Origin: an uncultured Bacteroidales bacterium | GTDB lineage: Bacteria > Bacteroidota > Bacteroidia > Bacteroidales > Muribaculaceae | Reading direction: 5' to 3' | DNA: 41,504 nt | Assembly: GCA_902774055.1 (NCBI GenBank) | Contig: CACYGX010000033.1 | Span: forward strand, 1 to 41,504 | In this document: one piece after another, positions 123 to 25,014 of the stretch | How positions within the stretch are numbered: the first letter of the stretch is position 1 | How the letters are laid out: every line of letters begins with the position of its first letter | Notes under the pieces: model-generated | The model's database searches: none | The model's input: the letters and a program-made list of their open reading frames with translations, nothing else | What the model was told of the DNA's origin: nothing | Program-made: the position numbers and the translations under genes

Positions 123-1886
123 TTAATTCAATATCGAGTGAATAAAAATTGTGAGCGCAACCATGTCGGCACTGCCGCCAGGAGAGACGTTGCGGGCGAT
201 GTAGTCGCGGTTCATCGCTTCCATGCCGGCGGTGCTGTAATTGTCGAGCAGCGCATGTGCCTCTTTTTTGACCTGTTGGGCCTGCTCGTAGCCCACGCGA
301 TGGATGACGTTGGTGTCGTCCAGCTGGCTCATGATGAGCAACAGTAGCTTGTGGCAGGCTGTCGAGGCATCGTCGTCAAGATAGCTGCGATAGGCGGGTA
401 ACCACACTTGGAACAGTTGCTGGTAACCCTCCTTAGCCAGGTCGAGTGCTCCGGTGACATGGTGAGCATTCACGGCATTATTGCCGTGGGTGCCCACCGT
501 GGGTGTGAAGCCCTCGGCGACTTGCATGATGGTGCCTTGCAGGTCTTGTTGGTTGACAATACCCTTGTGTGACGAGCACCAGGCGGCGGCCAGCGTGACA
601 AGGCCCATAGCAAACAGGGCTCCGCGGTGGGTGTTCACGCCGCCAGTGGCCTGGAGCATGGCCCGCTCGGCTTCGAGGCCGATTGTGCGCACTTGGTCCA
701 CGCTGGGCATAGCGTCCTGCTTGGCACAAGTGTGACCTAGAAGTGCTAACTGCACGAGATAGGGCAGCAGCGTGTCAATGCTCCTGCTCATCAACGCGAA
801 GTTCATGTCCTTGTGGGCACCGTTGTCGTTGCGGTCCACCAGTCCGGGCTTGGGCGTTGTGCCAAGCTCGGCGAGCAGGGCATGAACGGTCAGATGGGCA
901 ATGAGGTAGGGGACAGTGTCTTCGGGCACTAGCTTGAAGGCCCGACTGAATGACCCCTCGGCCAACGCCTGACGCACGCGGGACGCACTCACGGGCTCAT
1001 CGTCCTGCATGAGGCGGTCCACGGTCTTGACGGTGATGCCGTTCTTGGGCAATTGCTCCTGCATCAGCTCGTTGTAACGTGCTGTCAGCTTGTCAATGGG
1101 CTCGCTGCCCACATAGCGCGTTGTCACGCCCAAGGCGGGAGCAATGTGACGTGCAAACAGATCCAGATCCAGCGTGATGTGGGTATCGGTGGCGTCGGTC
1201 ACCTGTTTGAGGAAGTAGGTGGGGAACGTCAGGTCGCTGATGGCATAGTCACTGCCCTCAACCACCACCACGTTATTCAGTTCCTTGCAGCCGGCCTGGA
1301 TCATGGCGAGGCGCTCCGGGTAACGGAACTCAGAACGGTCCTCGCGCACCACGATGACATAGAGCGTCGATGCGCCAGCTGCAGCCTGCTCCACGAGGTA
1401 ACGGTGGCCACGGGTAAACGGGTTGGCATTCATGACGATGGCTGCAGCGCCATCAGGGCGGTTGCCACGCATGTGGCGCAGGTAGCCAGTGTAGGCACTG
1501 ATGCCTTTCATGCCGTTCTCCATCAGGATGGCCTTGGGGGCGCTGGCAATGACCTTGAAGGCCATGCTCTCAAACACCGTGCGGTTTTCGGGCTTGGTAT
1601 ATACCTTTACCGATTCGGCCCCTTGTTGGAGGGCCATGCCGATGAGGCGGGAAATCAGTTTGTTGCTCAGGCCGGTTTCCCGTGCTGCCTCGCCCACGGC
1701 TATGCACTTGATGACATTGCCCTGCAACCCTCCGCCGGCAATGATGTTGCCGTCATCGTCGGTAACGGCAGCATAGTAGTCCACGTCCTCAAGACGCAGC
1801 CCACTGTCGGCAAGGAAACGCTCCACCCGAGCCCTGTTGGACTTGAGCGAGAGCGGCATGTCGCAGATTTCAAAGTTATCGTACAT
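123..1886 (-). CDS. citC-citG: Fused citrate lyase ligase (CitC) and triphosphoribosyl-dephospho-CoA synthase (CitG)
   Basis: This protein of about 587 residues joins two citrate lyase maturation enzymes. Residues 1 to about 330 are CitC: an N-terminal acetyltransferase-like region and a nucleotidyltransferase with the NPFTRGH motif near 155-161 and ASRVRQ near 301. CitC acetylates the CitD prosthetic group using acetate and ATP. From about 332 to the end it is CitG, which makes the prosthetic-group precursor from dephospho-CoA and ATP; KPGLVDRND and GAHKDM (near 346-361), GVNTHRG and the terminal NVSPGGSAD are visible. I chose the ATG at 1886, which overlaps the citX stop by 11 nt; a TTG at 1895 is the alternative. 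CitG is more often separate or fused to CitX, so the CitC-CitG order is notable. Family calls are strong. Confidence 0.9.
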   Translation of the reverse strand: MYDNFEICDMPLSLKSNRARVERFLADSGLRLEDVDYYAAVTDDDGNIIAGGGLQGNVIKCIAVGEAARETGLSNKLISRLIGMALQQGAESVKVYTKPENRTVFESMAFKVIASAPKAILMENGMKGISAYTGYLRHMRGNRPDGAAAIVMNANPFTRGHRYLVEQAAAGASTLYVIVVREDRSEFRYPERLAMIQAGCKELNNVVVVEGSDYAISDLTFPTYFLKQVTDATDTHITLDLDLFARHIAPALGVTTRYVGSEPIDKLTARYNELMQEQLPKNGITVKTVDRLMQDDEPVSASRVRQALAEGSFSRAFKLVPEDTVPYLIAHLTVHALLAELGTTPKPGLVDRNDNGAHKDMNFALMSRSIDTLLPYLVQLALLGHTCAKQDAMPSVDQVRTIGLEAERAMLQATGGVNTHRGALFAMGLVTLAAAWCSSHKGIVNQQDLQGTIMQVAEGFTPTVGTHGNNAVNAHHVTGALDLAKEGYQQLFQVWLPAYRSYLDDDASTACHKLLLLIMSQLDDTNVIHRVGYEQAQQVKKEAHALLDNYSTAGMEAMNRDYIARNVSPGGSADMVALTIFIHSILN

Positions 1887-2379
1887 AGTCGTCAATCAGC
1901 TGTTGGATGTGAGCCATCAACTCCTCTTGAGTGTGGCTATGGTTGCGCATGCACCAGCGGGCCTCATGATCGCACAACAGGCAACGACGCGGTTCTCCAC
2001 CCACCGCCTGGCGGCTGATGGGCGTTCCGTCGTCGGCCATGACATCAATGTCGAACAGCCGCCCTAGCGGGTGGCTGTCTTCAATGTCACAGGTCACACG
2101 TTTGGCTTCCATCGCTGGCAAGTCGGTGATGAGATAGGCCTCAAAACCTGTTGTCAGGTCGCGGGCACGTGTCGCCTGAACGTGCTCGCCCAGTCGGTCG
2201 AGCAACGATGTAAGGGCCGCTTGTGCGGTAACTACCGAGTAGAGATTACGCTTGACGTTGCCAGGCATCACTACGGTGAGGCACACAAGTGTCTTGCCGG
2301 AATGCTGCTGGAGCAACTGCTGCTGTAGGGCGTGACGGTTGTCACGGCTTTGCAGTAGAGCGTCAAGCGTAATCTCCAT
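1876..2379 (-). CDS. citX: Apo-citrate lyase phosphoribosyl-dephospho-CoA transferase
   Basis: CitX (167 aa) attaches the phosphoribosyl-dephospho-CoA prosthetic group, made by CitG, to the serine of the CitD acyl carrier protein. The family motif GRLFDIDVM is present near residues 106-114, and a cysteine-bearing RRCLLCDHEA segment follows near 131-140, as in known CitX proteins. Length is normal for a stand-alone CitX. The gene sits 47 nt after citF and overlaps the start of the citC-citG fusion, so all three maturation activities are translated together. Confidence 0.9.
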   Translation of the reverse strand: MEITLDALLQSRDNRHALQQQLLQQHSGKTLVCLTVVMPGNVKRNLYSVVTAQAALTSLLDRLGEHVQATRARDLTTGFEAYLITDLPAMEAKRVTCDIEDSHPLGRLFDIDVMADDGTPISRQAVGGEPRRCLLCDHEARWCMRNHSHTQEELMAHIQQLIDDYVR

Positions 2380-2426
2380 CGCTAGTTTCTTATTTGTTTA
2401 CGGGCTATTTTCTCGAGTGCGAGAGA

Positions 2427-3965
2427 TTAGCCTACGATGTTCTTGATAACGTCCTGTACCGATCCGTCACGGTTCAATACCACGCCGACAACCTTGTCGC
2501 CGAAGGGCAGGGGAGCGGGATCGCCAATGATTGAGCGGGCCTTGGCAGCCAGGTCGTGGATGTCCACGATCTTGAGGCCGGCAGCCTCCAGACGCTCCTT
2601 GATCTCGGGACGGTTGGGGTTAACGGCGATACCGTACTCGGTAACGACAACGTCAACGTTGCTACCCGGAGTGATCAGGGTGGTTACCTCGTCAACGACG
2701 CAGGGGATGCGTCCGCGCAACAACGGGCAAACGATTACTGACAGGGCCGAGTCGGCAGCGGTGTCGGGGTGACCGCCGATGGCGCCACGGATGATACCGT
2801 CGCTACCAACGAGCACGTTCACGTTGAAGTTGACGTCAACCTCGAGGGCCGACAGGATAACGACATCCAGGAAGTGGGTTGCGGCACCCGGCTCCAGCAT
2901 GGCAGCATACTCGTTGGCCGATACGCCCTTGTGCAGGGGATCGTTCATCAACGACTCGGCAGCAACCTTGTCAAATGACTGAACATCGATCAGACGGCCA
3001 ATCAGACCCTCCTGATGCAGTTTCACCATGTGGCTGGTGATGCCACCCAGAGCGAAGCTGGCCTTGATGCCCTTGTCGAGCATACCTTGGCGCAGGTACT
3101 TGGTCACGGCGAGTGATGCACCGCCTGAACCCGTCTGCAGTGAGAAGCCGTTCTCGAAGTAACCGCTGTTCATCACCACCTTGGCAGCCTGCTTAGCGAG
3201 CAGGATGTCGCGCGGGTTCTTGGTGTCACGGATGGCACCCGAGGAAATCTTGCTCGAGTCACCCACCGAGTCAACAACGACAACATAGTCAACATCAGCC
3301 TCGCTGATGGCGTTGTGCTGGTTGGGATAGTCAACGAGGTCATCGGTCAGGATGACAGTCTTGTCGGCATACTTGGCATCGGGCAGGGCATAACCCAGTG
3401 AACCGCAGATGCTCTTGGCGTTCTCGCTGGTCGAGAAACCGGCAGCGTTACCCAGGGGGTCGCAAGACGAAGCGCCCAGGAAGGCAACGTCGATGTGCAG
3501 TTCGCCACTCTTGATGGCATAACCGCGTGAACCGTGGCTGCGGAATACGACGGGCTTCTCCATCAGACCGTGGGATACCTCGGTAGCGAGGGCACCGCGC
3601 AGGCCGCTGGTGTGCAACTGGGTGATCACGCCGTTCTTGATGTGCTCAATCAGGGGCTCATGCACGTCGATGAGGCTCGACGATGCCAGAGTCAGGTTCT
3701 TGAAGCCCATCTCGGCGAGTTTGGCAACTACCATGTTGATCACCTTGTCACCGCCGCGGAAGTGGTGGTGGAACGAGATGGTCATGCCGTCCTTCAGACC
3801 GCTCTTCTTGATGGCTTCCTCGAGGGTAACCACCTTGTTGCACTTGCGCTGCAATTCAAAGCGGGGAGTCGGATCCTTCTTCACTGCTGCGTCGTTATAG
3901 ACTGCCTTGTTCATCTTCTTTGCAGCCTCGGCGATCATGGCTGCTCTATCTTTGATACTGTTCAT
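2427..3965 (-). CDS. citF: Citrate lyase alpha subunit (citrate:acetyl-ACP transferase)
   Basis: CitF (512 aa, full length for the family) exchanges the acetyl group on the CitD acyl carrier protein for citrate, forming citryl-ACP and acetate. It belongs to the CoA-transferase superfamily. Visible features include the conserved SFHHHFRGGD segment at residues 64-73, a glycine-rich TGSGGASLAVTKYL region and the late VVTEYGIAVNP motif typical of CoA-transferase folds. Its ATG overlaps the citE stop by 4 nt (ATGA), indicating translational coupling. With CitE and CitD it forms the soluble citrate lyase complex that splits citrate to acetate and oxaloacetate. Confidence 0.95.
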   Translation of the reverse strand: MNSIKDRAAMIAEAAKKMNKAVYNDAAVKKDPTPRFELQRKCNKVVTLEEAIKKSGLKDGMTISFHHHFRGGDKVINMVVAKLAEMGFKNLTLASSSLIDVHEPLIEHIKNGVITQLHTSGLRGALATEVSHGLMEKPVVFRSHGSRGYAIKSGELHIDVAFLGASSCDPLGNAAGFSTSENAKSICGSLGYALPDAKYADKTVILTDDLVDYPNQHNAISEADVDYVVVVDSVGDSSKISSGAIRDTKNPRDILLAKQAAKVVMNSGYFENGFSLQTGSGGASLAVTKYLRQGMLDKGIKASFALGGITSHMVKLHQEGLIGRLIDVQSFDKVAAESLMNDPLHKGVSANEYAAMLEPGAATHFLDVVILSALEVDVNFNVNVLVGSDGIIRGAIGGHPDTAADSALSVIVCPLLRGRIPCVVDEVTTLITPGSNVDVVVTEYGIAVNPNRPEIKERLEAAGLKIVDIHDLAAKARSIIGDPAPLPFGDKVVGVVLNRDGSVQDVIKNIVG

Positions 3966-4852
3966 GCTAAGTCCTCCTTTGTCATGATGCCCGACGCGAT
4001 GGCCAGGTCGATGGTACGTTGTGCTCTGATAACCACGTTGCCGTTAACGGCAATAACGCCACTGCCGCGCTTCTCGGCTTCCTTGATGGCGGCGAGGATG
4101 GTCTTAGCCTTCTCGATTTCCTTCTCCTTGGGTGCGAAAATCTCATTAACAACCTCGATTTGGCGAGGGTTGATGATGGATTTGCCGTCGAAGCCCATGG
4201 CCTTGATCATCTCAACCTCGCGACGGAAGGTGTCCATGTCGTTGAGGTTGCTGAATACGGTGTCAAGAGCGTCGATGCCGGCAGCACGGGCTGCAGTCAC
4301 GATGCACTGGCGAGCCATTTGCAGTTCCATGCCGAAGAAGGGCGAGTCGCCCGTCGTGCGCTGTGCTTTCAGGTTAGCGCAGTAGTCCTCGGCGCCCAGG
4401 GCGATACCCATCATGCGCTTGCTAGCCGTTGCGATAGCATAGGCGTTGAGCGCGCCCAGCGTGCTCTCGATGGCGGCCATGATTTGGGTGCGGCCTACGC
4501 AGCCCAGCTCGGTCTCCACTTTGATGATTTCTTTCTCGAGTTCCACTACCTCCTCGGCAGTCTCGGTCTTGGGCATGCGGATGACGTGAACGCCAGCCTT
4601 TACCACAGCCTCGACATCCTTTTTACCATAAGGAGTGTTCAGCGGGTTGATACGTACTACCATCTCGGTGTTGCCGTAGTCGATAGTCTTCAATGCATTG
4701 TGAACCAGCAGACGCGCAGCATCCTTTTCGGCCATGGTGACAGAGTCCTCAAGGTCGAGCATGATTGAATCGGGACCGTAAATGTGAGCGTCGGCCATCA
4801 TTCCCGGGTTGTTACCAGGGACAAACATCATTGTTCTTCTGAGTCGTTGCAT
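3962..4852 (-). CDS. citE: Citrate lyase beta subunit (citryl-ACP lyase)
   Basis: CitE (296 aa) cleaves citryl-ACP to oxaloacetate and acetyl-ACP. It is a HpcH/HpaI-type TIM barrel. The opening LRRTMMFVPGNNP, the metal-site segment LDLEDSV at residues 32-38, the RINPLNTPYG arginine motif and the GAEDY motif are characteristic. The gene sits between citD (36 nt upstream) and citF (4-nt overlap), the canonical D-E-F order. Related CitE-like proteins act on malyl-CoA or citramalyl-CoA, but the adjacent citD, citF, citX and citC-citG make true citrate lyase the best reading. Confidence 0.95.
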   Translation of the reverse strand: MQRLRRTMMFVPGNNPGMMADAHIYGPDSIMLDLEDSVTMAEKDAARLLVHNALKTIDYGNTEMVVRINPLNTPYGKKDVEAVVKAGVHVIRMPKTETAEEVVELEKEIIKVETELGCVGRTQIMAAIESTLGALNAYAIATASKRMMGIALGAEDYCANLKAQRTTGDSPFFGMELQMARQCIVTAARAAGIDALDTVFSNLNDMDTFRREVEMIKAMGFDGKSIINPRQIEVVNEIFAPKEKEIEKAKTILAAIKEAEKRGSGVIAVNGNVVIRAQRTIDLAIASGIMTKEDLA

Positions 4853-19596: not shown

Positions 19597-21207
19597 ATGA
19601 GAAAGTTACTCTTAGGTGATGAGGCTATCGCCCAGGGCGCGCTTGACGCGGGTCTGAGCGGCGTGTATGCCTATCCAGGTACTCCCTCGACCGAGATCAC
19701 GGAGTACATTCAGAATTCTAAGTTAGCGGTGGAACGCAATGTTCATCGCCGCTGGTGTACCAACGAAAAGACGGCTATGGAGGCTGCCCTGGGTATGTCC
19801 TTCATGGGCAAGCGCGCGCTGGTCTGCATGAAGCATGTGGGCTTGAACGTGTGCGCCGACCCGTTCGTTAACTCGGGCATGACGGGTGTGAACGGTGGTC
19901 TGGTGGTTCTCGTGGCCGACGACCCCTCGATGCACTCTTCCCAGGACGAGCAGGACAGCCGTTTCTATGGCAAGTTCGCTATGATTCCCACGCTGGAGCC
20001 TAGCACCCAACAGGAGGCCTACGACATGATGGAGAAGGCCTATGAGTTGAGCGAGGAGGTGTGCTTGCCCGTGCTCATGCGCGTGACCACCCGCATGGCC
20101 CACAGCCGTGCCGTGGTAGAGGTGAAAGAGACCCCGCGTGCCGAGAACGAATTGAACTACGATGCCAAGGCTAGCCACTGGGTATTGCTCCCCGGCAACG
20201 CCATCAAGCGTAACATTACCGTTACTGGTCAGCAGGCCGACCTCGAGGATCGTGCCGTCAAGAGCGAGTACAACAAGTACATTGACGGTGCCGACCACTC
20301 GATGGGTGTTATTGCCACAGGTATCGCCTACAACTACTTGATGGAGTGCTATCCTGACGGATGCCCCTATCCCGTGCTCAAGATCAGCCAGTATCCCATG
20401 CCCAAGGAACTCATCCGCCGCATGACTGCCGACTGTGACGCCGTGCTCATCGCCGAGGAAGGCCAGCCCTTCGTCGAGGATCTCGTGCGTGGCGTGATGC
20501 CGGGCAATGCAGTAATCAAGGGCCGCCTCACCGGTGAGCTGCCCCGCACGGGCGAATTGAGCCCCGATGCCTTGAAGAATGCTCTGGGTCTCCCCGTCAG
20601 CGAGGGCTATCCCAGCTGTGAGAATGTGGCTCCGCGTCCCCCCGCACTGTGCCAGGGTTGCGGTCACCGCGATGTTTACACCGCGTTGAACGAGGTGCTG
20701 AAGGAGTATCCCAATGCTCGCGTGTTTGGCGACATCGGTTGCTACACGCTGGGCTTCATGCCCCCCTTCAAGGCTATCCACTCGTGTGTTGACATGGGTG
20801 CCAGCATCACCATGGCCAAGGGTGCCGCCGATGCCGGCCAGTGGCCCGCCGTTGCCATCATCGGCGACTCGACCTTTACCCACTCGGGTATGACGGGTCT
20901 GCTCGACGCCATCAACGAGAACGCCAACATCACCGTTATCATCAGCGATAACTTGACCACCGGTATGACGGGTGGTCAGGACTCGGCAGGTACCAACAAG
21001 TTTGAGGCCATCTGCCGTGGTCTGGGTATGACCGACGAGCACCTTAAGGTGGTTGTTCCCCTGCCCAAGAACATGCCCGAAATCACGCAAGTGATGCGTG
21101 ACGAGATTAACTATCGCGGCACCAGCGTGATTATCCCGCGCCGCGAGTGCATGCAAACATTACAACGTCATCTCAAACAAAAGAAAGCACAGGAGGCAAA
21201 GCAATGA
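19597..21207 (+). CDS. iorA: Indolepyruvate:ferredoxin oxidoreductase alpha subunit
   Basis: IorA (536 aa) is the thiamine-diphosphate subunit that oxidatively decarboxylates arylpyruvates to aryl-acetyl-CoA, reducing ferredoxin. The N-terminal half begins LLGDEAIAQGALDAGLSGVYAYPGTPSTEI. The TPP-binding half has CQGCGHRDVYTAL, GDIGCYTLGFMPPF and the GDSTFTHSGMTGL motif near 423. The protein ends at about the point where many IorA proteins continue into a C-terminal two-cluster ferredoxin domain; that domain is absent. Its stop overlaps the iorB ATG (ATGA, 21204-21207). Confidence 0.92.
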   Translation: MRKLLLGDEAIAQGALDAGLSGVYAYPGTPSTEITEYIQNSKLAVERNVHRRWCTNEKTAMEAALGMSFMGKRALVCMKHVGLNVCADPFVNSGMTGVNGGLVVLVADDPSMHSSQDEQDSRFYGKFAMIPTLEPSTQQEAYDMMEKAYELSEEVCLPVLMRVTTRMAHSRAVVEVKETPRAENELNYDAKASHWVLLPGNAIKRNITVTGQQADLEDRAVKSEYNKYIDGADHSMGVIATGIAYNYLMECYPDGCPYPVLKISQYPMPKELIRRMTADCDAVLIAEEGQPFVEDLVRGVMPGNAVIKGRLTGELPRTGELSPDALKNALGLPVSEGYPSCENVAPRPPALCQGCGHRDVYTALNEVLKEYPNARVFGDIGCYTLGFMPPFKAIHSCVDMGASITMAKGAADAGQWPAVAIIGDSTFTHSGMTGLLDAINENANITVIISDNLTTGMTGGQDSAGTNKFEAICRGLGMTDEHLKVVVPLPKNMPEITQVMRDEINYRGTSVIIPRRECMQTLQRHLKQKKAQEAKQ

Positions 21208-21717
21208 AAACTGATATCATTTTGTGCGGCGTGGGTGGACAAGGTATCCTCTCCATCGCTACCGTGATTGGCGAAGCAGCCATGCACGAGAATCTTTATA
21301 TCAAGCAGGCCCAATCCCATCCACAGCGACTTGATCGCTAAGGGTTCGGCCGACGTGATTATCTCGATGGAACCGATGGAGGCCCTGCGCTACCTGCCTT
21401 TCCTGAACAAGGAGGGCTGGATCATCACTTCGAGCAAGCCTTTTGTGAACATCACCAACTATCCCGAGGTGGATACCGTGATGGCCGAATTGGCCAAGGT
21501 GAAGAACGTCATTACCCTCGATATCGAGCAGTTGGCCAAGGATAACGAGATTCCTCGCTCGGCCAATGTCATCCTGCTGGGTGCTGCCCAGAAGGCCCTC
21601 GGCATCGAGTATGATAAACTCGAGAACGCCATTCGCCGCGTCTTTGGCCGTAAGGGCGACGCAGTGGTTGACGCCAACCTCAAGGCACTTGCCATCGGAA
21701 AGGAGGCTCAGCGATGA
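21204..21717 (+). pseudogene. iorB: Indolepyruvate oxidoreductase beta subunit, frameshifted by an internal deletion
   Basis: IorB is the partner of IorA. The frame from 21204 reads MKTDIILCGVGGQGILSIATVIGEA to YIKQA at 21311, then leaves the family and stops at 21341. The family sequence resumes in another frame at NPIHSDLIAKG from 21313 and continues through ISMEPMEALRYLPFL to a TGA at 21717. The block normally between these points, about 20 residues around VHGMSQRGGDVQSN, is missing, along with the frame. It overlaps the aminotransferase ATG by 4 nt. Genuine inactivation would disable the pathway; an assembly defect seems likelier, given the similar scars in rpsB. Confidence 0.9.
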
Positions 21718-23030: not shown

Positions 23031-23057
23031 GGACTAGAAACCTAGGTCTAAAAACAA

Positions 23058-23090
23058 AAATGCGGGGCGCCTCAACAGGCCCCCGCATTT
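23058..23090. terminator. Bidirectional terminator
   Basis: AATGCGGGG and CCCCGCATT pair around a loop of about 13 nt. The minus strand continues into TTTTTGTTTTT, the plus strand into TTTATTATA. It can serve both the aminotransferase (plus) and the YGPPP protein (minus). Confidence 0.75.
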
Positions 23091-23125
23091 ATTATAGGTA
23101 TGGAAGAGGATGGGTATAGAGGGAC

Positions 23126-23878
23126 TTAGTCCTCATTCTTAACGGGTGAAGCAACCACGACGATGAAATTAGCGATACGTTGCAGGGTACCCAGTTGCTT
23201 CATCATGTCACTGGTCAGCTGTACGCCCAAGTTGTTCTCTATCTCTTGTGAGAACGCTTCCAGTTGCTCAGCATCCAATTTCAGGTCGCGGATAATGTTG
23301 GCCTCAATTGGGATGTAGTTCTGACGAGACAATTGCATAACATAGTCTTGGAGTATTTCGCTAACGATATGTGTCGCTTCCGACTTGTCGTTGGCGGCCA
23401 TAGAGCGCAAACCTTCGGAATCTAAAATAATACGTCGGGGAGGGGGCGGGCCATAGACCAGCTCATGCGCTTTCATGGCGCGCTCGATGGAGTCGCGGCG
23501 CATGGCCTCAATACGTTCCCGCTCGGCCTGCATCATTTTCTCTTGATTAATGGAATCGGCGATCTCCTGTTCTCTGATCTGTTGGTCCTTGTCCTTTTTC
23601 TTCTTTTTGTCCTTGTCCCTTTGGGCTGGAGGCGGACCATAGACAACTACAGTCTGGTCAATACTCCGGTTCACCACCTGATTCATGGCAAACAAATCGT
23701 CGAAGTCGTACACATCACCGTTGATGGAAACAACATCGGCAGCCGTGAGTTTTACCTCGTCGCTCGGCGGCTGTGTCACGGGGGAGCCAGTGGCAATGCC
23801 TGGCGTGAGGCCTGCCGCAACTACTGCGCCCACAGCGGTGATTGATTTCCTTGTTTTGTCCTTGTTTTTCTTTTTCAT
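23126..23878 (-). CDS. Secreted-looking protein with two YGPPP motifs, partner of the radical SAM enzyme
   Basis: I do not recognise a named family with certainty. The 250 residues begin with a very basic stretch (MKKKNKDKTRK) and a short hydrophobic segment with small residues (ITAVGAVVAAGLTPGIATGSP), which could be an export or leader signal. Residues 47-64 (ADVVSINGDVYDFDDLFA) may be a recognition segment. VVYGPPPAQR (Tyr80) and LVYGPPPPRR (Tyr142) are two copies of one motif, separated by a charged, helical linker. The C-terminal 100 residues are predicted helical and hydrophobic at the end. The gene starts 13 nt after the radical SAM gene. I infer that it is the substrate of that enzyme; Tyr-Gly-Pro sites are plausible modification points. 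Confidence 0.75.
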   Translation of the reverse strand: MKKKNKDKTRKSITAVGAVVAAGLTPGIATGSPVTQPPSDEVKLTAADVVSINGDVYDFDDLFAMNQVVNRSIDQTVVVYGPPPAQRDKDKKKKKDKDQQIREQEIADSINQEKMMQAERERIEAMRRDSIERAMKAHELVYGPPPPRRIILDSEGLRSMAANDKSEATHIVSEILQDYVMQLSRQNYIPIEANIIRDLKLDAEQLEAFSQEIENNLGVQLTSDMMKQLGTLQRIANFIVVVASPVKNED

Positions 23879-23891
23879 AGCGTATTGCGTT

Positions 23892-24962
23892 TTAGAGTTT
23901 TATGTTCTTCAGTCGGTTGTAGTGGCACAGCATCAAGTCTCCATTCTCGTCACGCAGGTGGAAACCATTGCCCTGGCAGTAACGGAATGCCTCGCAATCC
24001 TGGCACACGCCGTGTCGCATCCACTCACGGTCGCGGTATTGCTCGAAACGGTTTTCCCACACGTCCCAGAAACGGTCACGATAGATGTTCCCCTGATTAT
24101 AGTCGCTGCGGATGCTCAGGCAGCCCGAGATGGCACCGTCGGCGCGAACGCTCGCTACTGTCAGTCCTGCCTGGCAGTTGTAGAAAGAGTTGCGAACGAG
24201 TCCTTCGTATGCACCCAGATAGCCCTCACAGGCATAACTCAGGTTAATTTTTCCCTCACGGCGGGTGAGGACGATGAAGTTGAGCAGATCGCGGAACTGC
24301 TCATCGGTGAGTTGCAGGCTCTCGTCGTCGGTTGCGCGCCCCATGGGGATGATGGTGAAACAGCGCCAACGGGTGACGCCGGCCTCGATGAGCAGTTGCT
24401 TGAGCTCGTCAAGGTGGTTGATGTTGCGGCTGTTCACGCAGGTGATGATGTCCCAGGTGAGGTGGGGAATGGTCTGCACTGCTTCTACGGCCCGCATGGC
24501 GCGGTCAAAGCCCGTAGGGGAGTTGCGCAGCCAGTTGTGGTCGTCGCGGGTGCCGTCCACATCGATGGATAGCGTATTGATGCCGGCCTGTGCCAACTCG
24601 CGGGCGACAGAGCGGTCCAGGGTGATGCCATTGGTCACCATGCCCCACATGAAGCCGCGCTCACGGATGGCACGTCCGCAGTCCATCAGGTCAGGACGGA
24701 CCAGCGGCTCACCGCCAATGGTGTTCACCAACACGCGGCGGGGGTTGCAGTGTGCTGCCACATCATCGAGCACTGGCAGGAAATCGGCAAACGGCATGTC
24801 GGGCACGGCAGAGACTTTCAAGCAGTCACTGCCGCAGTGTCGGCACGCCATATTGCAGCGCAGGGTACACTCCCAAAACAGCTGTCGCAATGGGTGTTCC
24901 CGCTTGAGGCGCTCCACCAGTTCATAGGTGTCCTCCAGGCATTGTTGTTGATGCACATTCAT
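23892..24962 (-). CDS. Radical SAM/SPASM enzyme
   Basis: This 356-residue enzyme has the radical SAM cluster motif CNMACRHC (Cys36, Cys40, Cys43) within a cysteine-rich stretch starting WECTLRC, the GGEPL motif and, in the C-terminal third, a SPASM-like set of cysteines (FYNCQAG, ISGCLS, GVCQDCEAFRYCQGN, LMLCHY) for auxiliary clusters. Such enzymes often modify peptides or proteins. The opening resembles the Bacteroidetes rSAM/lipoprotein group as I remember it, but the neighbour here is the YGPPP protein rather than a typical lipoprotein. A consensus promoter directly precedes it. Function is inferred from family only. Confidence 0.88.
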   Translation of the reverse strand: MNVHQQQCLEDTYELVERLKREHPLRQLFWECTLRCNMACRHCGSDCLKVSAVPDMPFADFLPVLDDVAAHCNPRRVLVNTIGGEPLVRPDLMDCGRAIRERGFMWGMVTNGITLDRSVARELAQAGINTLSIDVDGTRDDHNWLRNSPTGFDRAMRAVEAVQTIPHLTWDIITCVNSRNINHLDELKQLLIEAGVTRWRCFTIIPMGRATDDESLQLTDEQFRDLLNFIVLTRREGKINLSYACEGYLGAYEGLVRNSFYNCQAGLTVASVRADGAISGCLSIRSDYNQGNIYRDRFWDVWENRFEQYRDREWMRHGVCQDCEAFRYCQGNGFHLRDENGDLMLCHYNRLKNIKL

Positions 24963-24981: not shown

Positions 24982-25014
24982 ACAAAGATAAACCAATATT
25001 TAATAATATGCAAA
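24982..25014 (-). promoter_or_regulatory. Promoter of the radical SAM/YGPPP operon
   Basis: TTTG (25011-25014, minus) lies 20 nt from TATCTTTGT (24982-24990). Transcription would start only about 15 nt before the radical SAM ATG. Confidence 0.8.

Follow-up and report, generated by a model that had tools for sequence, protein, structure and literature searches.

Results

Organization of the locus

The window, i.e. the whole stretch of 41,504 nucleotides analysed here, comes from an uncultured Bacteroidales bacterium (Muribaculaceae) and carries on its minus strand a gene for a radical SAM/SPASM enzyme followed by a gene for a second protein, which we call the partner and presume to be the substrate (Table 1). 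The ORF coordinates agree with an earlier reading made from the letters alone (the sequence-only reading) as to this two-gene arrangement and its 13-nt gap. The same reading had placed a promoter and a terminator around the pair, and both have a counterpart: a Bacteroides-type promoter-like site (25014-24983) ends 20 nt 5' of the enzyme start codon, and a strong hairpin lies 3' of the pair, between convergent genes (-25.3 kcal/mol, z -4.5 versus shuffles). The pattern used for the former, which we take to be the Bacteroides-type consensus (-33 TTTG / -7 TANNTTTG), has 8 matches in the window for 0.32 expected. Scans of the E. coli type proved unhelpful as a guide: no terminator was returned at the ends of either gene, and for promoters two promoter-like sites were returned between 22900 and 25300, both on the plus strand. 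The Bacteroides-type pattern and RNA folding were used instead.

The flanking genes encode an aminotransferase, on the opposite strand, and a patatin-like outer-membrane protein; both were scanned and neither is an RRE. A plasmid or phage home of the locus was discarded, the best plasmid match reaching 54% and the phage matches being weak, without any sign of a mobile origin. Elsewhere in the window, positions 123-4852 hold a citrate lyase cluster according to Pfam (CitF, a CitE-type lyase and a citrate lyase ligase-CitG fusion), and the gene that follows the TPP-dependent oxidoreductase subunit (19597-21207) looks like a split gene, showing up as a pair of ORFs that overlap but are read in different frames (21147-21717).

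Table 1. Features of the enzyme-partner locus, in positions of the window.
Feature	Position	Strand	Details and basis
Bacteroides-type promoter-like site	24983..25014	minus	pattern match
Radical SAM/SPASM enzyme, TIGR04133	23892..24962	minus	356 aa; ORF, NCBIfam score
CX3CX2C motif (Cys36, Cys40, Cys43), SAM-binding 4Fe-4S cluster	24834..24857	minus	invariant in 34 aligned enzymes
SPASM region (Cys263, 281, 320, 323, 329, 346)	23925..24176	minus	invariant in 34 aligned enzymes
Partner, presumed substrate	23126..23878	minus	250 aa; 13 nt 3' of the enzyme
Hydrophobic segment, residues 13-31, likely signal or anchor	23786..23842	minus	mean Kyte-Doolittle 1.53
N-terminal module TAADVVSING, residues 45-54	23717..23746	minus	T45, A46, A47, V50 and G54 invariant in 21 partners
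Site 1, Val79-Tyr80-Gly81-Pro-Pro-Pro	23627..23644	minus	sequence
Site 2, Val141-Tyr142-Gly143-Pro-Pro-Pro	23441..23458	minus	sequence
Acyl-carrier-like C-terminal domain, residues 154-243 (predicted)	23150..23419	minus	Foldseek on predicted model
Ala203 at the carrier-Ser position	23270-23272	minus	alignment
Terminator-like hairpin, then T run	23054..23095	minus	RNA folding versus shuffles

The enzyme

Judged by its score on the NCBIfam model TIGR04133 (514.1 bits for a cut-off of 425), the enzyme is a member of this family, in keeping with its earlier placement in the Bacteroidetes rSAM/lipoprotein group. PF04055 and PF13186 are both above their gathering thresholds, and the AlphaFold model (mean pLDDT 90.6) has the fold of a SPASM enzyme, the best matches among PDB structures being BlsE, SuiB, anSME and SkfB; a sequence search of the PDB returned distant rSAM enzymes only. 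The six SPASM cysteines are also invariant in an alignment of 16 enzymes that includes the Nostoc TIGR04103 enzyme.

The model TIGR04103, which we take to be the PlpX family (IPR026482), gives the window enzyme 132.2 bits for a cut-off of 725, and a heme b synthase model gives it 125. A profile search at E<=1 found no PqqD-type domain (RRE) in the enzyme or in the partner. Because its score is below the TIGR04103 cut-off and no RRE was found in the pair or in the flanking genes scanned, we do not file the enzyme in the PlpX family; by analogy, it nevertheless most likely works like PlpX.

TIGR04133 scores above its cut-off in 41 of the 198 Bacteroidales genomes sampled. The pair formed by this family and a lipoprotein is as such already known from public annotation, which gives a name to the enzyme family and, in other records, to the lipoprotein; a family name has thus been assigned, a function has not. 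In the literature searched, TIGR04133 and TIGR04134 were mentioned nowhere and biochemical data on TIGR04133 were not found.

The partner protein

The N-terminus of the partner is basic and is followed by a short hydrophobic stretch, as the sequence-only reading had it, albeit a weak one: the 19 residues from residue 13 average 1.53 on the Kyte-Doolittle scale, which makes them the top 19-mer among the stretches compared. On this ground the protein may be exported or anchored in the membrane. The YGPPP motif is indeed present twice, at Tyr80 and Tyr142, with a Val before each. As for the Arg-rich residues said to follow both, they are found after site 2 (RR), whereas site 1 is followed by a Lys-rich stretch. 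When the partner was shuffled 50,000 times, at least one YGPPP appeared in 3 shuffles and two in none; the double motif is not due to chance. Both YG sites lie in non-helical, low-confidence stretches of the predicted model.

The partner had also been described as other than a standard lipoprotein, and it is so: it has no match to TIGR04134 at E<=1, which rules out membership of that family, and no cysteine at all, so that a thioether within the partner is impossible.

The C-terminal third has an acyl-carrier fold in the predicted model, a point absent from the sequence-only reading. Acyl carriers or their complexes make up most of the 50 Foldseek matches listed out of 424, with a target-normalised TM up to 0.81, a probability of 1.00 and a best E of 1.1e-3, which is modest. 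PF00550 gives 14.5 bits on the partner, under the gathering cut-off of 20.8, and the column of the phosphopantetheine serine, which is Ser in 10 of 21 aligned partners, holds Ala203 here. The domain is thus classed as a carrier on the strength of its predicted fold and of its relatives rather than of its function.

The XYG motif beside TIGR04133-type enzymes

We then looked at the ORFs of 60-320 aa lying within 60 bp of an enzyme gene (adjacent ORFs) at 119 loci of TIGR04133-type enzymes from Bacteroidales genomes, some of them below the family cut-off. A second set was formed by the best 80 of the 582 relatives listed by a scan of genome contigs; the two sets have 9 enzymes in common. At the 119 loci, YG.P is present in 81 of the 132 adjacent ORFs and in 11 of the remaining 1221. 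The corresponding figures for the best 80 of 582 relatives are 59 of 100 adjacent and 23 of 2091 other ORFs. By a looser count in the latter set, a neighbour with YG.P is present at 66 of the 80 loci and one with YG at 75. Within 700 bp, a same-strand ORF with YG.P was found at 92 of the 119 loci and at none of 17 control rSAM loci (20 taken, 3 dropped for want of an enzyme ORF by phmmer). Since the control loci give only 7 adjacent ORFs, a stronger control is provided by the 1221 and 2091 other ORFs of the enzyme loci themselves.

Among the 27 loci of the 119 that lack YG.P within 700 bp, 15 have an XYG minus that Pro in a plausible partner (e.g. YGVRRDP, YGPRPR, YGTGPS); at the other 12, some of which lie at contig ends, no XYG was seen in a plausible partner over the same distance. 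The strict YGPPP is much rarer, being found in an adjacent ORF at 16 of the 119 loci and at 8 of the best 80 of 582 relatives. We thus rejected it as the motif of the family, and the expectation that most homologues of the enzyme would have a YGPPP partner did not hold. What recurs in Bacteroidales is X-Tyr-Gly, usually XYGxP, with the Pro two residues past the Gly. In 176 partner contexts the residue before YG is V in 77, M in 35, E in 25, C in 16 and L in 7. Given this recurrence beside TIGR04133-type genes, the Tyr motif is likely to be the target of the enzyme, as had been suggested.

Scaffolds and conservation of the partner

The proteins that carry the motif have unrelated scaffolds, namely lipoproteins, coiled-coil-like proteins with one to several XYG sites each, TonB_C proteins and, in the window's genus, acyl-carrier-like proteins. 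In many relatives the partner is a small upstream lipoprotein with the motif right after or near the lipobox Cys, e.g. ACYGTPQ; TIGR04134 lipoproteins are represented by records from Treponema saccharophilum and Parabacteroides distasonis.

Partners in the window's genus lie downstream of the enzyme, and 23 of the 70 loci scanned hold 28 ORFs with an N-terminal TAAD-type pattern, all 28 of which contain XYG. These proteins end either in an acyl-carrier-like domain or in TonB_C. PF00550 is above gathering in 6 of 8 acyl-carrier-type partners scanned, and TonB_C was recovered in both TonB_C-type partners scanned; partners of the latter type mostly have a single YG. One acyl-carrier-type partner (L076) even passes TIGR00517, with 71.9 bits for 70.45. 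Across 21 aligned acyl-carrier-type partners the invariant positions are seven columns in residues 22-54 and the two YG pairs; past residue 54, only Y80 G81 and Y142 G143 do not vary. YG was observed 46 times, for 6.6 in shuffles. A second, overlapping set of 12 partners keeps Y80, G81 and Y142 invariant, site 2 reading YS or YD in L157 and L160. The number of XYG or XYGxP sites differs among the genus loci compared, which answers the question, put in the sequence-only reading, whether the motif count varies between strains. The partner also occurs in tandem, as many as three full copies having been seen side by side, with between one and three XYGxP sites per copy (L268).

Among 101 genomes of the genus, a relative of the partner is present in 44 and the enzyme in 64. 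Of the 44 genomes with a partner relative, 42 also have the enzyme; one of the two exceptions has an enzyme fragment at a contig end, and the other (G432) has no enzyme in the 8 kb read. Conversely, 22 of the 64 enzyme-bearing genomes have no match resembling the window partner (P0001). The enzyme is therefore present in 42 of 44 genomes with a partner versus 22 of 57 without (Fisher p 1e-9, a value to be read with the caution that genes of one operon are not independent).

Two observations concern the N-terminal segments in this genus. In L071, L073 and L075 a lipobox-like A-A-C or T-A-C closes the hydrophobic segment and, because the window partner has no Cys, the type of anchoring seems from the sequences to vary within the partner family. 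In L067:2593-3168, L068, L070, L072 and L076, an acyl carrier domain with a DSL serine stands behind a signal-like hydrophobic segment, an odd arrangement for a phosphopantetheine carrier.

Enzyme tree and related XYG peptides

A first tree of 40 rows, including 13 of the 17 control enzymes, grouped TIGR04133 with six PlpX-, GDL- and Agathobacter-type rows at 96/93, the controls L091, L093 and L094 being weak next neighbours. In a second tree of 43 rows, with eight rows added and five omitted (L091, L093, L094, L098 and the PqqE row L238), the group was split off at 99/98; two AhbD-like rows of this tree score 329 and 172 bits on TIGR04545, both below the cut-off of 500. As the omission could flatter the grouping, the five rows were restored in a tree of 48 rows, from which AhbD and NirJ members above cut-off are absent. 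Here 28 rows (TIGR04133, TIGR04103, GDL-type, Agathobacter and kin) split from 20 other rSAM rows with a support of 98/95; several of the outside rows drew long-branch warnings. Inside the 28-row group, the position of TIGR04133 is settled neither by the 43-row tree (64/66) nor by the 48-row tree. MftC is known to act on a C-terminal Val-Tyr; its rows fall outside the 28-row group in the 48-row tree, and an MftC-like chemistry was set aside.

The window enzyme and the Nostoc TIGR04103 enzyme share 26% identity (pair E 1e-35), and the latter adjoins a Nif11 precursor that ends in IALYGLPPELF. The DUF1843 peptides of GDL-type enzymes have an XYG (LYG, PYG) near their N-terminus, e.g. RMLYGGAM and KPYGVAI. 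No convincing XYG peptide was found within 700 bp of L257, L260, L262 and L263, in or near the group, nor of L258 and L259.

Several of these loci deserve mention on their own account. On the Agathobacter rectalis plasmid NZ_CP143948.1, a 68-aa ORF missing from the gene table lies just 5' of the radical SAM gene (L149:2710-2916) and ends in VMYGTGVRM, making it a likely XYG peptide. In the Bacteroidales genome G165, an enzyme that groups with the Agathobacter one (L265:1928-3379) is followed 35 bp downstream by an ORF of 214 aa, whose product has six KYGYP repeats (five KYGYPC, one KYGYPG) and is apparently a multi-site XYG substrate. The Azospirillum GDL-motif loci L150, L152 and L153 encode DUF1843 peptides with LYG or PYG, one copy per locus being XYM (RPMYMAT/YPMYMAT). 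Finally, on a Tropicibacter oceani plasmid (L151:2674-5482), a TIGR04103-like enzyme overlaps the start of a gene with a trypsin-like peptidase domain, an overlap of interest because spliceotides inhibit proteases.

Discussion

Comparison with known systems

The window pair resembles the TIGR04133/TIGR04134 pair in that its enzyme is a full TIGR04133 member and that the lipoprotein partners also carry YGxP. On the other hand, its partner is downstream, whereas most lipoprotein partners among the loci compared are upstream, it has no Cys and two sites, and it is a protein unmatched by TIGR04134 with a carrier-like C-terminal domain.

A second parallel can be drawn with the PlpXY splicease of Pleurocapsa (Morinaka 2018, Lakis 2022, Scott 2022), which likewise combines an rSAM/SPASM enzyme with an XYG substrate. 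According to PMC10533398, PlpXY excises tyramine at XYG, its natural sites being MYG and LYG, and it can splice, with no RiPP leader present, an affibody fusion that carries a ten-residue PlpA2 core with a GYG motif. As described in PMC10533398, PMC10373908 and PMC11002830, a precursor may have several splice sites, as in the window partner, and an xP also follows the site in PlpA2-derived tags (YGLPI). The window partner has the XYG of PlpX-type splice sites as VYG, twice, and both sites are YG in 21/21 relatives; the window enzyme falls in the same 28-row tree group as the Nostoc TIGR04103 enzyme, but the branching inside that group is not settled. Unlike PlpXY, the window system has no visible RRE and no Nif11 or nitrile-hydratase leader, and its substrate would be an envelope-type protein of 250 aa. 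The motif alone is not always enough, since PlpXY accepted only 2 of 16 insertions of splice tags into FtsZ (Table 1 of PMC10533398).

The GDL-motif peptide maturases (TIGR03913) with their DUF1843 peptides belong to the same tree group and have XYG in their peptides; unlike the window partner, these peptides are small and signal-less, come in sets of two or three, and some are XYM. As regards acyl carrier proteins (PF00550/TIGR00517), the predicted helices of residues 154-243 fit the fold, but the window domain stays under the PF00550 cut-off and has no serine.

A possible splicing of the partner

We propose that the enzyme modifies the partner at both XYG sites, and a PlpX-like splicing at Val79-Tyr80-Gly81 and Val141-Tyr142-Gly143 is, by analogy, what probably takes place; the site, the neighbouring residues and the kin of the enzyme point that way, each of them indirectly. 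The data show a recurrent pair of enzyme and partner in which a YG target is conserved; that this YG is modified, and that the reaction is an excision, is inferred. A 5'-deoxyadenosyl radical would attack the Tyr of an XYG site, a tyramine equivalent (C8H9NO, -135.08 Da) would be excised from the backbone and the ends rejoined, and Val79 and Val141 would become alpha-keto-beta-amino residues beside Gly. The enzyme would read only the short motif XYG(x)P, placed in a flexible linker, leaving the scaffold free to vary. Here the scaffold would be an exported or membrane-anchored protein, with its N-terminal hydrophobic segment and a carrier-like domain minus the serine. At the cell envelope, the two ketoamides would act as electrophiles and could plausibly trap proteases of the serine or cysteine type. 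The idea of an envelope-bound protease trap is a guess by analogy, made because spliceotide products inhibit proteases, as described in PMC11117315 and PMC10373908.

One could also assume that the partner is the substrate and YG the target, but that another rSAM chemistry acts on the Tyr without any excision, such as a C-C, ether or cyclophane cross-link or an oxidation (-2 Da). Cross-links of this sort are made by many SPASM enzymes, the best PDB fold matches of the window enzyme include SuiB, anSME and SkfB, and the motif evidence is compatible with any Tyr-directed reaction. We nevertheless hold this alternative to be rather unlikely: Gly follows Tyr at both sites in 21/21 partners, and at site 1 in 12/12 of the second set, as in XYG splice sites; the enzyme stands apart from MftC, PqqE and the other rSAM rows in the tree; and its score on NF050035, the family of aromatic cross-linking maturases (WgkB), is low, at 69.5 bits for a cut-off of 650. 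Aromatic cross-linking, which the sequence-only reading had offered as an example, thus fits less well than a PlpX-type excision of tyramine, to which both the XYG motif and the enzyme tree point.

It would be more surprising, and we judge it improbable, that XYGxP is a docking motif only, the enzyme then modifying a different residue in the partner, or else some small molecule, with the partner as carrier or chaperone. The acyl-carrier fold of the C-terminal domain would suit such a role, all the more as the near relative L076 has a true carrier domain by its TIGR00517 score. However, the window has Ala203 in place of the carrier serine, which is kept in 10/21 partners, TonB_C, lipoprotein and coiled-coil-like scaffolds replace the carrier while the YG stays, and nothing else is invariant beyond residue 54 in 21 partners. 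That the two genes are chance neighbours and the motif low-complexity noise is hardly credible, for although YGPPP is short and the partner repetitive in places, YG.P is enriched 50- to 70-fold in ORFs beside the enzyme and the two genes co-occur in the genus as described above, with one of the two misses at a contig edge.

Coming back to splicing, a broader hypothesis can be put forward tentatively. TIGR04133 enzymes could be protein spliceases, found throughout Bacteroidales, that act not on peptides but on exported folded envelope proteins in which XYG is kept and the carrier of the motif is swapped between lipoprotein, coiled coil, TonB_C and acyl-carrier domains. The genus would have recruited a true acyl carrier, whose serine would then have been lost in the lineage of the window, leaving a display scaffold for two ketoamide warheads at the surface. 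A literature search, the scope of which excluded Scott 2022, found no paper linking XYG across unrelated scaffolds, describing carrier or TonB_C partners, or reporting the loss of the serine.

If TIGR04133 enzymes do splice XYG, proteins with an altered backbone would be frequent on Bacteroidales of the gut and rumen, and splicing would extend, with neither a RiPP leader nor a visible RRE, to proteins that are folded and exported. This would also provide a testable reason for the presence of CYGxP or VYGxP in unrelated partners, as well as a wider toolbox for the making of reactive ketoamide proteins.
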